Translations under genes and position numbers: made by a program
Assembly: GCA_018267065.1 (NCBI GenBank)
Contig: JAFDZG010000167.1
Coordinates: forward strand, 1 to 35,544
Source of the DNA: Bacteroidota bacterium
Lineage (GTDB): Bacteria; Bacteroidota; Bacteroidia; Flavobacteriales_F; PHOS-HE28
Direction: 5' to 3'
Length of the DNA stretch: 35,544 nucleotides
Part shown: positions 6,600 to 24,902 of the stretch, piece by piece
How positions within the stretch are numbered: position 1 is the first letter of the stretch
Layout of the letters: every line of letters starts with the position of its first letter
The notes under the pieces: model-generated
The model's database searches: none
Told to the model about the DNA's origin: nothing
What the model saw: the letters and a program-made list of their open reading frames with translations, nothing else

Positions 6600-8411
6600 A
6601 TGAGCGACATCATCCGCCTCCTCCCCGACCACGTGGCCAACCAGATCGCCGCAGGCGAAGTGGTGCAGCGCCCCGCCAGCGTAGTGAAGGAATTGCTGGA
6701 GAACAGCGTGGATGCCGGGGCCAGGCAGATCATCCTGGTGCTGAAGGACGCGGGGCGCACGTTGATCCAGGTAACCGACGACGGGCAAGGCATGGGCCCC
6801 GGCGATGCGCGCTCGTGCTTTGAACGGCATGCCACCAGCAAGATCCGCCAGGCCGACGACCTGCAGCACATCCGCACCAAGGGCTTCCGGGGCGAGGCAT
6901 TGGCCAGCATTGCCGCAATTGCCCAAGTGGAATTGAAAACACGCCTGGCGGGTGACGAGCTTGGCACCCGCGTGCTGATCGAGGGCAGCCGCGTGCAGGC
7001 GCAGGAAACAGTGGCCTGCCCGGTGGGCACCAGCCTGCTGGTGCGCAGCCTGTTCTACAACGTGCCTGCCCGGCGCCAGTTCCTGAAGGGCGACCCCGTG
7101 GAGCTGAAACATGTGATGGAGGAATTCCAGCGCGTGGCACTGGCCCATCCGGCCATCGGCTTCCGCCTGCTGCACAACGAGCAGGAAGTTTTCCACCTGG
7201 AACCGGGCAACGAGCGCCAGCGCATCGTGCACATCTTCGGCCGCAAACAGGACGAGCGCTTGGTGCCCGTGGAGGAATCCACCGAATTCCTGCATGTGGA
7301 GGGCTTCATCACCAAACCCGAGTTCGCCAAGCGCAGCCGGGGTGAACAGTACTTCTTCGTGAACCGCCGCTATATCCGCAGTCCCTACCTGGAGCACGCG
7401 GTGCGGCGTGCATACGAGGAGCTGATCCAGCGCGACAACTACCCCGGCTGGTTCCTGTTCCTGGAGCTGGACCCGGCATGGATCGACATCAACATCCACC
7501 CCACCAAAACGGAGATCAAGTTCCGCGATGAGCGGGCGGTTTACGCCATCATCCACGCGGCCGTGCGGCGGGCGCTGGGGCGCCACAACCTTACGCCCAG
7601 CCTGGATTTTGAACCGGAACCGGCCTTGCTGCAAGGGGCTGTGGCCACCCGTGCGGCACCGGTGGAACCGCCCATCGGCAGCGGCCGGTGGCGGCCCCAG
7701 GACCTGCCTTCCCGTCCATCATCGGCGGGATGGCAACAACTGTTCGACCTGGGCGAGAACCCGGTGGTGCAGCACGATGAAAAATTGCCCGGACGAGCTC
7801 CCGTTGCCCCGGAAATGCCTGCGCGCGACCCGCGGGAATGGAACAACAACAGGCCTGTGTTCCAACTGCCGGGGCATTACATACTGGCCCAAGTAAAGAG
7901 CGGCTTCGTGGTGGTGGACAGCCAGCGGGCGATGGAGCGCATCACTTACGAGCACGCCATGCGATCACTGGAAAAGGGCAGCGGTGCCAGCCAGGCCCAG
8001 TTGTTCCCGGTAACCATGGAATTCAACGGTCCGGACCATGCGCTGCTGCTGGCCCTGTTGCCGGAGCTGCATGCGTTGGGCTTCCGGCTGGAGCCCCTCA
8101 GCGGCCGCAGCGTGGCGGTGAACGGCATGCCTGCGGAATGCGGCGCGGACGACCCTGCCGACCTGCTGGGGCAACTGCTGGAACAGGTGCACAACGAGCG
8201 CGGCTCGCTGAAGGCCGAACGCCACGCCACGCTGGCGCGGGGCATGGCGCGCAGCACGGCGGCCCACGCGGCCAAAACCATGGATGCCGCCGCCATGCAC
8301 GACCTCATCGACCGGCTCTTCGCCTGCGAAATGCCCTATTTCACCCCGGGCGGAAAACCGGTCCTGATCACTTACGGGCTCAACGAGCTCAACGAACGCT
8401 TTGAACGCTGA
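6600..8411 (+). CDS. mutL: DNA mismatch repair protein MutL
   Basis: MutL couples mismatch recognition by MutS to strand removal. The 603-residue product has the complete GHKL ATPase: N-Q-I-A-A-G-E-V (residues 14-21), K-E-L-L-E34-N35-S-V-D-A-G, the ATP-lid D60-D-G-Q-G, F-E-R-H-A-T-S-K and G-F-R-G-E-A-L (95-101). The second domain ends with the conserved 'DINIHPTKTEIKF' region. A Pro-rich linker (~345-415) leads to the C-terminal dimerisation domain. There the endonuclease motif is degenerate: D440-S-Q-R-A-M-E-R-I-T-Y-E451 instead of DQHA(x)2E(x)4E. The ATG at 6600 (MSDIIRLLPDHVANQIAAGE) is preferred over 6564 because it gives the standard MutL start. The stop overlaps the rhomboid start (TGATG), implying coupling. 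Confidence 0.97.
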   Translation: MSDIIRLLPDHVANQIAAGEVVQRPASVVKELLENSVDAGARQIILVLKDAGRTLIQVTDDGQGMGPGDARSCFERHATSKIRQADDLQHIRTKGFRGEALASIAAIAQVELKTRLAGDELGTRVLIEGSRVQAQETVACPVGTSLLVRSLFYNVPARRQFLKGDPVELKHVMEEFQRVALAHPAIGFRLLHNEQEVFHLEPGNERQRIVHIFGRKQDERLVPVEESTEFLHVEGFITKPEFAKRSRGEQYFFVNRRYIRSPYLEHAVRRAYEELIQRDNYPGWFLFLELDPAWIDINIHPTKTEIKFRDERAVYAIIHAAVRRALGRHNLTPSLDFEPEPALLQGAVATRAAPVEPPIGSGRWRPQDLPSRPSSAGWQQLFDLGENPVVQHDEKLPGRAPVAPEMPARDPREWNNNRPVFQLPGHYILAQVKSGFVVVDSQRAMERITYEHAMRSLEKGSGASQAQLFPVTMEFNGPDHALLLALLPELHALGFRLEPLSGRSVAVNGMPAECGADDPADLLGQLLEQVHNERGSLKAERHATLARGMARSTAAHAAKTMDAAAMHDLIDRLFACEMPYFTPGGKPVLITYGLNELNERFER

Positions 8412-9220
8412 TGGACTTCTCCGGACAAACCAACCGAATGCCCGTGGTGGTGAAAAACCTGCTCATCATCAACGGCCTGATGCTGGGGCTGAAGATCGCC
8501 ATGGGCAACGACTTCATGGGGCGCAGCATCCTGGACAACTGGCTCGGCCTGCACACCATCGGCTCACCGGACTTCAAGCCTTGGCAGGTGATCACCCACA
8601 TGTTCATGCACGCGGGCCCCAACGGCGGTCCCGGCTGGTACTGGCACATCCTCTCCAACATGTTCGCCCTGTGGATGTTCGGCATGCCCATTGAACGCGT
8701 GATGGGCGCCAAGCGCTTCCTGAACTACTACCTGCTCTGCGGCCTTGGCGCCGCTGCATTGCAAATGGGCGTGAGCTATTACGAAACCCAGGCCACCGTG
8801 GCCGAGGTACAGGCCTCGGGCGCCACCGTGGGCGATGTGCAGCGCATGGTGGAGGCCAGCCATGTTTCCATGGACGACGCCAACATGGTGCTCAACGACA
8901 TAGCCCAACAACACCCCGGGAGCGAAGCCGCCGTGCAAGCGCTGTTCTGGGACTACAACGGCGTGATGATCGGCGCCAGCGGCGCCATCTTCGGCATCCT
9001 CATCGCCTTCGGCATGCTCTTCCCCAACGTGGAGCTGATGCTGCTCTTCCTGCCCATCCCGATCAAGGCCAAATACTTCGTGGCGCTGTACGGCCTCTGG
9101 GAATTGTTCTCCGGCGTGCGGCAGCAGGCTGGCGACAACGTGGCCCACTATGCCCACCTCGGTGGTCTCATCTTCGGCTTCTTCCTGATCCGGCACTGGA
9201 AACGAAAGAACGTGTTGTAG
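8411..9220 (+). CDS. Rhomboid-family intramembrane serine protease (269 aa)
   Basis: Rhomboids cleave membrane proteins within or near the bilayer. This protein has about six membrane helices. It shows the L1 region W-Y-W-H-I-L-S-N-M-F-A-L-W-M-F-G after 'HMFMHAG', the nucleophile motif G-A-S190-G-A-I-F-G and the partner histidine in A-H-Y-A-H249-L-G-G-L-I-F-G. The Ser/His dyad is therefore intact. An unusual acidic, helical insertion of about 55 residues (roughly 128-180) separates the third helix from the one carrying the serine. The ATG overlaps the mutL stop by one base, so the pair is translationally coupled. Pairing of mutL with rhomboids is a genomic habit I associate with Flavobacteriia; a shared function is not established. 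Confidence 0.93.
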   Translation: MDFSGQTNRMPVVVKNLLIINGLMLGLKIAMGNDFMGRSILDNWLGLHTIGSPDFKPWQVITHMFMHAGPNGGPGWYWHILSNMFALWMFGMPIERVMGAKRFLNYYLLCGLGAAALQMGVSYYETQATVAEVQASGATVGDVQRMVEASHVSMDDANMVLNDIAQQHPGSEAAVQALFWDYNGVMIGASGAIFGILIAFGMLFPNVELMLLFLPIPIKAKYFVALYGLWELFSGVRQQAGDNVAHYAHLGGLIFGFFLIRHWKRKNVL

Positions 9221-9396
9221 TCAATTCGCCAATTGAACAATTCGCCAATTTGCCAAGGCAGCAAATATCAATTCGCCAATGCACCAAGTTGCCAATGCAG
9301 CCATGAACATTTCACCGCACCTTGATTGAAGCATTGGCACCTTGGCACCTTGGCAAATTGGCACCTTGGCACCTTGGCAAATTGACCCATTGAAAA
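9221..9396. repeat. Intergenic repeat cluster of TTGGCAAATTG-type words (copy A)
   Basis: The gap between the two rhomboid genes is almost wholly made of variants of one word. The left half carries CCAATTTGCC/CAATTCGCCAATT-type copies and the right half carries the reverse-complement orientation. A perfect tandem duplication of a 24-nt unit, ATTGGCACC-TTGGCACC-TTGGCAA, occupies 9333-9356 and 9357-9380. CAATTTGCCAAGG at 9246-9258 is the exact inverse of CCTTGGCAAATTG at 9348-9360 and again at 9372-9384, so a long-range hairpin is possible. It has no coding potential. Related words occur at 23097-23173 and 24836-24902. Confidence 0.75.
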
Positions 9397-10302
9397 ATGT
9401 CCATCGCCGACGACATCAAGTATCAGTGGAACACCGGCGGCATGCTGGTGCGCCTGCTGATCGTCAACATTGGCGTTTTCCTGGCCATTTGGGCCGTGGA
9501 ATTGGCCGGCTGGCTCTTCGGCATGAAGGGGCTCAGCGCGCTGCTCTTGGACCAGCTCATGGGCACCAACATCCCCTCGAAGTTGATCACCCGCCCTTGG
9601 ACGCCGGTAACGTACATGTTCACGCACCAGGCCCCCATGCACCTGTTCTGGAACATGATCATGTTCTGGTTCAGCGGGCAGCTCTTCCAAGGCATCCTTG
9701 GCGATAAGCGCCTCTTGGGCAACTACCTGCTCGGAGGCCTTGCAGGCTACCTCTTCTATGCGCTGGGTTCCTTCATGCCGGCCCATCTGGCCCTGGGCAG
9801 CGACGGGCCCATCCTCGGTGCTTCCGCCGCCGTGATGAGCGTGCTGATCGGAATTGCCAGCTACCGCCCGGACATGCTGGTGAACCTGTTCCTGATCGGC
9901 CCGGTGCGCTTGAAATACGTGGGCATCGCCGTGCTGGTGCTTGACCTTATTGCCATCAGCGGCGGCAGCAACACCGGCGGCCACCTGGCGCACTTGGGCG
10001 GAGCGCTTTACGGCTATCTGGCCGCGCGGCAACTGGCCGCCGGAACGGACTGGTCCGGCGCGTTCGTGGGCTGGCTGGAAAGAATCCCGAAGTTCTTCAA
10101 GCGCGGGCCCGCGCGCATGCGCGTTGAAAAGCGGCCCCCGCACAATGCCCGCGGCACGGTGTCCGATGCCGACTTCAACGCATCCAAAAAGCAGCAGCAG
10201 GAGCGCATCGATGCCATCCTGGACAAGATCTCCCGCTCCGGCTACGACAGCCTGAGCAAGGCCGAACGCGACTTCCTCTTCCGCAACGGCAATGAACATT
10301 GA
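9397..10302 (+). CDS. Rhomboid-family intramembrane serine protease (301 aa)
   Basis: This is the second rhomboid in the cluster, only distantly similar to the first. It has the L1 signature F-T-H-Q-A-P-M-H-L-F-W-N-M-I-M-F-W-F-S-G, the catalytic G-A-S143-A-A-V-M motif and the helix with G-H-L-A-H199-L-G-G-A-L-Y-G. Six hydrophobic segments lie between residues ~15 and ~215. A soluble, basic C-terminal tail (~225-301) contains R-I-D-A-I-L-D-K-I-S-R-S-G-Y-D-S-L-S-K-A-E-R-D-F-L, a short helical motif commonly found at the end of Bacteroidota rhomboids. It is separated from the first rhomboid by the repeat cluster and overlaps the next gene by 11 nt. Substrates are unknown. Confidence 0.93.
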   Translation: MSIADDIKYQWNTGGMLVRLLIVNIGVFLAIWAVELAGWLFGMKGLSALLLDQLMGTNIPSKLITRPWTPVTYMFTHQAPMHLFWNMIMFWFSGQLFQGILGDKRLLGNYLLGGLAGYLFYALGSFMPAHLALGSDGPILGASAAVMSVLIGIASYRPDMLVNLFLIGPVRLKYVGIAVLVLDLIAISGGSNTGGHLAHLGGALYGYLAARQLAAGTDWSGAFVGWLERIPKFFKRGPARMRVEKRPPHNARGTVSDADFNASKKQQQERIDAILDKISRSGYDSLSKAERDFLFRNGNEH

Positions 10303-22174: not shown

Positions 22175-22960
22175 ATGCCGCATGCGCCCAAGGAAACCAG
22201 TGAATTGCACAACCTGCTGGAGGAAGCCTACCAGCGCTTTGCCACGCCCGCCTTCATCGCCAACGACCCCATCCAAGTGCCGCGCGCCTTCAGCAACCGC
22301 GAGGATGCCGAGACCATCGGCTTCCTCACCGCCGCCATTGCCTGGGGCCAGCGCAAAACCATCATTGCCAACGCGTGGAGGTTGGTGCGCCTGATGGATG
22401 GGGCCCCGCATGATTTCGTGATGCACGCCTCCCCCAAGGAGCTGCGCCGCACCGAAGACTTCGTGCACCGCACCTTCAACGGCACCGACCTGCAAGGTTT
22501 TAATCGCGGATTGCGGCATGTGTACACCGCGCATGGCAGCATGGAAGCCGCCTTTCTGCCGGAGGAGGCCGATGCATCGCTCCCGACCATGTCGGAAATG
22601 ATCGCGCTGTTCCGCGCGCGATTCTTGGCGCCGCCACACGCATTGCGCACGGAGAAGCACGTGGCCAACCCCGCACGCGGCAGCAACGCCAAGCGCATCA
22701 ACATGTTTCTGCGGTGGATGGTGCGTCCCGCCGATCGCGGCGTGGACCTGGGCCTGTGGAAACGCATACCGCCTGCCGCGCTGCACATGCCGTTGGATGT
22801 GCATTCCGGCCGGGTGGCCCGCGAGCTTGGCCTGCTTCAACGCAATCAGGACGATTGGAAAGCCGTGGAGGAACTCACCTTGGCCTTGCGCCGCTTCGAC
22901 CCCGCCGACCCCGTGAAATACGATATCGCGCTTTTTGGATTGGGGGTGAGCGGCATGTAG
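22175..22960 (+). CDS. TIGR02757 (DUF2400) family protein
   Basis: The 261-residue product matches the uncharacterised TIGR02757 family throughout. Landmarks are D-P-I-Q-V-P-R-A-F near residue 30, E-T-I-G-F-L-T-A-A-I-A-W-G-Q-R-K-T-I-I, G-S-N-A-K-R-I-N-M-F-L-R-W-M-V-R with D-L-G-L-W-K-R-I, and the H-S-G-R-V-A-R-E-L-G-L motif with the final D-P-V-K-Y-D-I-A-L-F-G-L-G. The family is a distant relative of helix-hairpin-helix DNA glycosylases and has no established activity. There is no signal peptide or membrane segment. It starts 9 nt after the preceding stop and converges on guaB across a 216-nt repeat-rich gap. Confidence 0.92.
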   Translation: MPHAPKETSELHNLLEEAYQRFATPAFIANDPIQVPRAFSNREDAETIGFLTAAIAWGQRKTIIANAWRLVRLMDGAPHDFVMHASPKELRRTEDFVHRTFNGTDLQGFNRGLRHVYTAHGSMEAAFLPEEADASLPTMSEMIALFRARFLAPPHALRTEKHVANPARGSNAKRINMFLRWMVRPADRGVDLGLWKRIPPAALHMPLDVHSGRVARELGLLQRNQDDWKAVEELTLALRRFDPADPVKYDIALFGLGVSGM

Positions 22961-22964
22961 TTCG

Positions 22965-23011
22965 TAGTTCGCAGCTGATACTGGGCGGTGTGCGCTGCGC
23001 CCTGCGAACTA
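22965..23011. repeat. 10-bp inverted repeat downstream of the TIGR02757 gene
   Basis: TAGTTCGCAG (22965-22974) and CTGCGAACTA (23002-23011) are exact inverse copies. Within the 27-nt loop GGGCG (22983-22987) can pair with CGCCC near 22998-23002. It lies directly after the stop codon and may terminate or protect the transcript. No U-run follows. Confidence 0.5.
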
Positions 23012-23096
23012 TGAACCACGCCCTAACAACCAGCAACGAACAACCCCTCCATTCCCGTTACGGGTTGTACAATTGCGCCGGGCGTACCGCTTCAGC

Positions 23097-23173
23097 CTTT
23101 GGCAAATTGGCAATTGTAGATTTGGCGCATTGGCAAATTGGCGAATTTGCCAATTGTCCAATTGGCAAATTGC
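23097..23173. repeat. Intergenic repeat cluster of TTGGCAAATTG-type words (copy B)
   Basis: This part of the convergent gap between the TIGR02757 gene and guaB is built from TTGGCAAATTGG variants in both orientations. At 23129-23154, ATTGGCAAATT - GGCG - AATTTGCCAAT forms a perfect 11-bp stem with a 4-nt loop, positioned to act on transcripts from either side. Further copies lie at 23098-23115 and 23151-23173. It has no coding potential and shares words with the clusters at 9221-9396 and 24836-24902. Confidence 0.75.
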
Positions 23174-24751: not shown

Positions 24752-24835
24752 TTACCACAACTGGCGCTAGCAGCGATGCACCCGCCTGGGATGTGGCTTG
24801 GGCCGCCCGTCCGTGTAAGGCTGCATTCGGGTTCT

Positions 24836-24902
24836 TTGACGAATTGTACCGGGTTCTTTGGCGAATTGGCGAATTGATCCCTTTGGCAAATTGCCTCAAC
24901 GG
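24836..24902. repeat. Intergenic repeat cluster of TTGGCAAATTG-type words (copy C)
   Basis: The third cluster lies between guaB and the type B T9SS gene. It reads as successive imperfect units GACGAATTG, GGCGAATTGGCGAATTG and TTTGGCAAATTG, with two TTCTTTG spacers. Unlike copies A and B, it is in one orientation only. It contains no ORF of note. Confidence 0.65.

Follow-up and report, generated by a model that had tools for sequence, protein, structure and literature searches.

An octamer array fills the spacer between two rhomboid genes

The window, by which we mean the whole stretch of 35,544 nucleotides analysed here, carries two co-directional genes on its plus strand, one at 8411-9220 coding for a rhomboid domain (PF01694) and one at 9397-10302 coding for a rhomboid domain plus DUF6576. 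The 176 nt between them (9221-9396), from the first base past the upstream stop to the last base before the downstream ATG, are filled by an array of octamers of the form TTGGC+NNN, which we call copy A. Its minus-strand words precede its plus-strand words. The 5′ arm (9222-9297, minus strand) consists of degenerate octamers with the core GCCAA, that is TTGGC on the minus strand, at 9228, 9244, 9252, 9275, and 9291 (five cores within 9228-9295). After a centre, or loop, of about 35 nt (9298-9332), the 3′ arm (9333-9396, plus strand) has six TTGGC cores at 8-nt spacing, at 9334, 9342, 9350, 9358, 9366, and 9374 (within 9334-9378), followed by TTGACCCATTGA immediately 5′ of the next start codon. 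A sequence-only reading had described this gap as one word in both orientations, and its details were reproduced here. By the tandem-repeat finder TRF and by direct comparison, the 24-nt units 9333-9356 and 9357-9380, three octamers each, are identical and make an exact tandem duplication (9333-9380, plus strand); the reverse complement of 9246-9258 is present at 9348 and 9372; and the gap has a G+C content of 0.46, while the genes on either side have 0.61 and 0.62, a composition as unlike theirs as had been claimed. The inverted arms 9220-9258 and 9348-9386 are 77% complementary over 39 nt. The predicted fold reaches -60.8 and -83.9 kcal/mol on the two strands, the latter on the minus strand (z -5.1 and -6.6), as is expected from any inverted array. 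Given the exact 24-nt duplication and the regular 3′ arm, copy A may be young.

Two smaller clusters lie near guaB. Copy B (23099-23173, plus strand) is an octamer cluster directly downstream of this gene; it has a single minus-strand core, so it stays outside the polarity count given below. Copy C (24828-24893, plus strand) is a small cluster upstream of guaB with TTGGCRAATTG at 24858, 24866, and 24883 and a degenerate copy at 24828-24846. The gap that holds copy B also contains a second word family at 22960-23016, with inverted arms GTTCGTAGTTCGCAG and CTGCGAACTATGAAC of GTTCGTA type.

The words are clustered, in register and mostly intergenic

The word TTGGCAAATTG, with at most one mismatch, was found 14 times in the window where 1.28 matches were expected, and 0 of 100 shuffles reached 14. 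All matches fall in three clusters between called genes (9222-9384, 23099-23172, and 24858-24893), the last two being those that the sequence-only reading had added to copy A as further intergenic occurrences. Genome-wide, the exact word has 54 copies and the reversed-word control 1. The spacing of the cores gives a unit of 8 nt. Of 196 adjacent same-strand TTGGC cores (at most 32 nt apart) in the window and 20 stretches that bear the word, 139 were spaced at multiples of 8, and 99 of these at 8 itself; for the reversed core the figure was 2 of 14. The units thus stand head to tail with a period of 8, inside the 5-11 nt range of short-unit tandem repeats (Markov controls gave 0 to 0.6 arrays per sample), and their words show the intergenic over-representation of such repeats. 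In the window and the 20 stretches, which were selected for holding the word, the 22,701 bp that were called intergenic contained TTGGCRAATTG 93 times, and the 162,645 bp of called coding sequence contained it 15 times. Thirteen of the 15 coding words were listed singly: ten stand at the starts of called frames (five loci) that we judged to be over-extended, and three are lone words in ordinary genes. Neither chance frequency nor equal abundance inside genes, either of which would have told against a repeat family, describes these counts, and the array of copy A is real and non-random. In 18 stretches picked regardless of the word, TTGGCRAATTG was found 0 times in 147.0 kb of coding and 0 times in 26.8 kb of intergenic DNA, so the arrays are confined to limited loci.

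Anatomy and polarity of the family

The window's genome is designated G000 and others of the genus are numbered likewise. The 26 clusters in the fetched G000 stretches gave 169 in-phase units. As TTGGC was the search term, its conservation is by construction; the three positions after it read GAA in 55 units, AAA in 51, ACC in 24, and other triplets in 39. The ACC ending was found in 0 of 33 units in G018, 0 of 24 in G004, and 0 of 8 in G020, which may be taken as a modest sign of a species-typical vocabulary, the samples being small and ACC coming from 6 of the 26 G000 clusters.

By a scripted rule (cores within 45 nt, at least two words per strand, at least one 8-nt link), GCCAA words stood mostly ahead of TTGGC words in 12 of 13 G000 clusters (p 0.003), the exception being L067. 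Three of the 12 conforming clusters are mixed (two adjacent hairpins in L055; L058), and two more, L063 and L068, score lower because of an isolated first word. The rule left out two clusters that have no 8-nt link, one against the polarity (L060) and one, inside a gene, for it (L061). The array centres differ at most loci; C283 and C291 have a common palindromic centre, and C116 repeats its own. The outer ends, read from the listed arrays, are mostly CAATT...AATTG, and the arms are often very unequal in length. Copies A and C11 have in common a 44-nt stretch, 41 positions of which are identical, including the non-core tail TTGACSCATTGA.

Twelve arrays lie between two called genes. Eleven of them reach within 20 nt of a gene end, partly since the gaps are short. 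Five of the 12 gaps are convergent, compared with 19 of 102 array-free gaps of at least 60 nt (a difference given without a statistical test), and two are divergent. In G004, the same TTGGC array is present twice, inverted and about 3.9 kb apart (C3:1021-1052 and C3:4911-4942; L041 and L047).

The same gaps hold other words in related species

The 24-mer form (three octamers, at most three mismatches) was found in 6 of 45 genomes of the genus, with 41 matches in G000, 34 in G018, 6 in G004, 4 in G020, and 1 each in G011 and G048. At C102, an array is present in G000, G004, and G020, and those of G004 and G020 differ by 24 nt, that is three octamers, to the right of an insertion that interrupts the G004 copy. 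In the gap after guaB, where G004 has two units, G000 is 55 nt longer between the same flanks. The arrays of relatives do differ in length, but only the 24 nt correspond to whole octamers, the 55 nt not being a multiple of 8 (one 7-nt unit, by reading). The insertion in G004 (L037; C1, about 839 kb) has inverted ends GGGCTATCGCCTC ... GAGGCGATAGCCC, splits the TTGGC array, and carries CACGGATAGACACGGATCG-type words inside.

The contents of orthologous gaps were compared by eye. In the rhomboid gap, G018 has the same word as G000, G004 has ACTTTCM heptamers, G002 has AACTGGC/AACTGAG-type words in two arms, and G013 and G039 have GGCGCAGAG-type arms; no clear array was seen in G006 and G020, and in more distant species this gap was mostly shorter, with no evident arrays. 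After guaB, GTTCGTA-type words were seen in G018 and G006 and GGCAGTR in G002, the next called gene leaves no gap in G013 and G039, and more distant species again had mostly shorter gaps with no evident arrays. After the C151 gene, G000 has TTGGC, and TTGTCAG-type words are found in G006, G004, G020, G013, and G002; none were evident in G018, and G039 was not readable. Here the spacer content is wholly different between species whose flanking protein is 84-95% identical. The spacers of G004 and G020 after the C151 orthologue (L330 and L331) are near-identical, though other words differ between these two genomes, and a recent exchange is possible. After the C120 gene, TTGGC was seen in G000, GGTGAT-type words in G006, G039, and G013, and several words in G002, with no words evident in G004, G018, and G020. 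At C283, where the comparison is weak since the neighbouring gene differs in several relatives, G000 has an array; the gap measures about 6-40 nt in five of seven relatives, 78 nt in G006, and about 140 nt, with a few words, in G020. Read in this way, the spacers of this genus appear to hold several word families, TTGGC among them, that lengthen, shorten, and take one another's place.

Other word families and in-frame copies

When seven closer species (777 kb) and six other species (593 kb) were scanned for degenerate tandem units, intergenic arrays with a period of 7 or 8 (or 14, 16) numbered 23 in the former and 2 in the latter (Markov controls 0 to 0.6), and called-coding DNA gave 7 and 11 arrays, respectively. 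This comparison is only indicative, as TTGGC matches guided the choice of the window and the G018 stretches, and genes of interest that of some other stretches; G041, counted among the other species, has 84 matches to the AGTTGTC heptamer. Of 44 genus genomes, 37 contain three tandem AGTTGTC units (at most three mismatches), with 104 matches in G000 and 333 in G059, while reversed controls gave at most 3 per genome; this pattern is shorter and looser than the TTGGC 24-mer, and the counts of the two are not strictly comparable. Among the matches listed, AGTTGTC precedes its complement in 17 of 17 two-strand clusters (p 1.5e-5), and 66 clusters have one strand only. All 17 centres were read, and they differ.

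Open frames were checked for 5 of the 17 clusters. Two lie in frame in adenylate-cyclase-like genes, an identity that is a reading of the translations, and a third lies in another open frame. A linker site of the cyclase-like genes (L402-L431; e.g., L402, L405, L420, and L422) was readable at 20 of 30 loci, giving 21 sequences in which orthologues and paralogues are mixed. The linker has 8 residues in 9 of the 21 and 17-28 more in the other 12; six of these long linkers have GTTGTC-type arms and two have GGTGAATGG/CCATTCACC arms. An open frame was a requirement of the search, so their in-frame length follows by design, and their folding z ranges from -6.6 to +1.2. The same site thus carries either an 8-residue linker or in-frame hairpin-like inserts, with word families that differ by species. 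A broad scan for four TTGGCNNN units returned at least 119 stretches from many phyla; perfect tandem repeats, and possibly coding DNA, are among them, and the scan shows recurrence of the core only.

Origin of the arrays

Our favoured reading, held with moderate confidence, takes copy A as one locus in a family of dispersed short-unit arrays, grown from seeds by slippage and hairpin formation. A short word seed, a few octamers often in both orientations (CAATTYGCCAA...TTGGCRAATTG), would sit between genes; slippage during replication, mostly by 8 nt at a time, would extend it into two arms; and hairpin formation would probably help by copying the word onto the opposite strand. The gain and loss of units between orthologues argues for slippage, and a common vocabulary without a detectable common order argues against the copying of whole arrays. 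Slipped-strand expansion had been one of three options put forward from the sequence, and it is the best supported of them, given the two orthologous pairs of arrays that differ by gained or lost units. Accordingly, the arrays probably come from copying slips rather than from a known jumping element, and we infer that slippage with hairpin-templated synthesis causes them and that they are mostly tolerated rather than selected. Plain local slippage fails to explain why many loci use one vocabulary, why its endings vary by species, or why the polarity is kept; a short seed that is mobile, or some word-spreading activity, possibly lies behind the common vocabulary. Also against this reading stand the 55 nt after guaB, the 44-nt stretch common to copies A and C11, the wholly different spacers after the C151 gene, and the fold of copy A, which is better than that of its unit shuffles.

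Copying of whole arrays between loci was considered and rejected: 51 of 136 locus pairs were unreached by 60 shuffles, but this null mixed the arms, and with within-arm shuffles a score as high as observed was reached by at most 5 of 100 shuffles in 8 of 120 pairs, about the number expected by chance. For the persistence of hairpins, we looked at the hairpin nuclease SbcD. Its model gave 0 of 29 genus genomes over the cut-off, with weak matches below it in 6, while 13 of 14 control genomes matched, 8 of them over the cut-off. A genus without a recognisable SbcD may let hairpins persist. Loss of SbcD was rejected as a discriminating cause, since species rich in arrays and species poor in them equally lack a recognisable SbcD.

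In an unlikely alternative, though one that several observations fit, the arrays are palindromic, non-autonomous mobile elements (of MITE or RPE type) ending in CAATT...AATTG; an enzyme would move them, and their arms would then decay and expand. One vocabulary recurs at many loci with kept polarity and alike outer words, many orthologous gaps are array-free, copies A and C11 have their 44-nt stretch in common, and a related word family stands in frame at the cyclase site, where 12 of 21 linkers are long and 9 have the 8 residues. The arrays, however, have no constant interior and no detectable common unit order; the order along copies that marks a MITE was not seen in the 120 pairs, copies A and C11 being a possible exception. 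By eye, no target duplication was seen at the arrays, and in the array-free gaps of relatives the flanks are too diverged to mark a precise insertion site. Moreover, a TTGGC array flanked 0 of the 20 Y1_Tnp (PF01797) loci read in five genomes, all 8 of G000 included, some of which look IS200-type rather than RAYT and some of which are cut by contig ends; the L318 locus of G002 has 2 isolated words. After the family search and these 20 loci, a RAYT/REP origin was rejected for this array, and the REP-like option of the sequence-only reading, in its strict RAYT-linked sense, found no support. Several Y1_Tnp genes of the genus (L300-L319) carry palindromes of their own (e.g., GGCACGAGCGTGGACGCTCGCGCC and GCGACCCCTTCAGGGTCG) and apparently belong to ordinary REP-type systems.

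We consider it quite improbable that the arrays are functional 3′-end elements, in which a hairpin ends or protects the transcripts of abutting genes and only the fold matters, leaving the words free to change. The strong hairpin predicted on the minus strand of copy A, the closeness of 11 of 12 arrays to a gene end, the share of convergent gaps, and the terminator-like hairpins with T-runs seen by eye after guaB in some array-free relatives all suit such a role. Yet several orthologous gaps have no array, 2 of 12 arrays lie in divergent gaps, the terminator scan found no T-run terminator at copy A, and the same class of repeat is tolerated inside coding sequence. Nor do the arms co-vary, copy A possibly excepted. 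When octamer blocks were shuffled, 11 of 12 hairpin segments (one of which, L057, had no left arm as cut) gave z values from -1.84 to +2.18 on either strand, and base pairs kept beyond the common word composition were not found in these 11; the arms are therefore not tuned to each other unit by unit. Copy A is the exception, as it folds better than its own unit shuffles (z -2.5 and -2.9). A search of 8900-9800 against Rfam gave four microRNA models only, all far under the cut-off. The RNA structure that had been offered as a further option thus gained no support, and a conserved RNA structure was rejected on a block-shuffle test that was mostly negative.

A nucleoid or regulatory protein that binds the arrays and reads one core per 8 nt would explain the few forms seen at the three positions after the core, but the conserved core is itself no evidence for binding, since the units were recognised by it, and with the 24-mer form in only 6 of 45 genus genomes and other words or none in the same gaps of relatives, we regard this as very unlikely. 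An assembly artefact is scarcely credible. The assembly that contains the window is broken into 348 contigs, and an array is found at the end of one of them (C17:1-19), but the same words and arrays are also present in G004, which is assembled in 4 contigs.

Relation to known repeats and significance

The closest description that we found for the TTGGC arrays is that of the TAACTGA heptamers, intergenic direct repeats in Beggiatoaceae, Cyanobacteria, and Bacteroidetes (MacGregor 2015, PMC4679880). As far as that account was consulted, both consist of short units with a mostly intergenic and patchy distribution and other words mixed in, both have relatives with shorter, repeat-free gaps, and in two Cyanothece strains the heptamers differ mostly by indels in 7-nt steps. 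In contrast to them, the TTGGC arrays have an 8-nt unit, two inverted arms with a kept polarity, and several families that swap at orthologous gaps. The long simple sequence repeats (5-11 nt) of Mrazek et al. 2007, as reported in PMC4679880, agree with our arrays in unit size and in their explanation by slippage; the TTGGC arrays differ in their degenerate units, inverted arms, and genome-shared vocabulary. GGGNATC heptamers of Xanthomonas and Nostoc (Rehm 2015, PMC4692102) are likewise described as abundant short units with an excess in non-coding DNA, often near stop codons, but they form G-quadruplexes, with four units preferred, whereas the TTGGC arrays form a predicted hairpin and have no G-tracts. 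REP elements with RAYT transposases are intergenic palindromes too (per the parts consulted of PMC3733652), and from these the TTGGC arrays differ by having no RAYT linkage, no fixed stem-loop, and 8-nt tandem units. Rickettsia palindromic elements resemble the AGTTGTC family in standing in frame in genes; in the portion consulted of PMC10969869 they are sequence families of about 150 bp, whereas the arms in this genus are tandem 7- or 8-mers. Borg tandem repeats evolve fast in spacers and open reading frames, as do the word families here, but they are direct repeats on archaeal extrachromosomal elements, and the part of PMC9879509 consulted mentions no inverted arms such as the TTGGC arrays have. 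A literature search, including full text, for TTGGCAAATTGGCAA and GTTGTCAGTTGTCAG, with most subscription journals outside its coverage, returned no description of these octamers or of the arm polarity. The TTGGC arrays are best read as a variant of the known intergenic heptamer and octamer repeats.

A broader proposal, which we think distinctly improbable, is that word hairpins form a general class of element, with two inverted arms of 7- or 8-nt words, a family-specific polarity (AGTTGTC 5′ and GACAACT 3′; GCCAA 5′ and TTGGC 3′), fixed sites, and words that are rewritten between species. If true, this class would include the in-frame sites inside adenylate-cyclase-like genes, and it would imply a dedicated activity, possibly templated or hairpin-processing, that spreads a chosen word, rather than plain slippage.

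In the published accounts cited above, so far as consulted, heptamer and octamer arrays are treated one word at a time and their mechanism is left unsettled. This genus is a system where a given spacer carries different words in related species, the arms are polarised, and the gain and loss of units can be read from orthologues. It is a testable case for the birth, the spread through a genome, and the replacement of short-unit repeats, and for whether the polarity of the hairpins betrays an enzyme.
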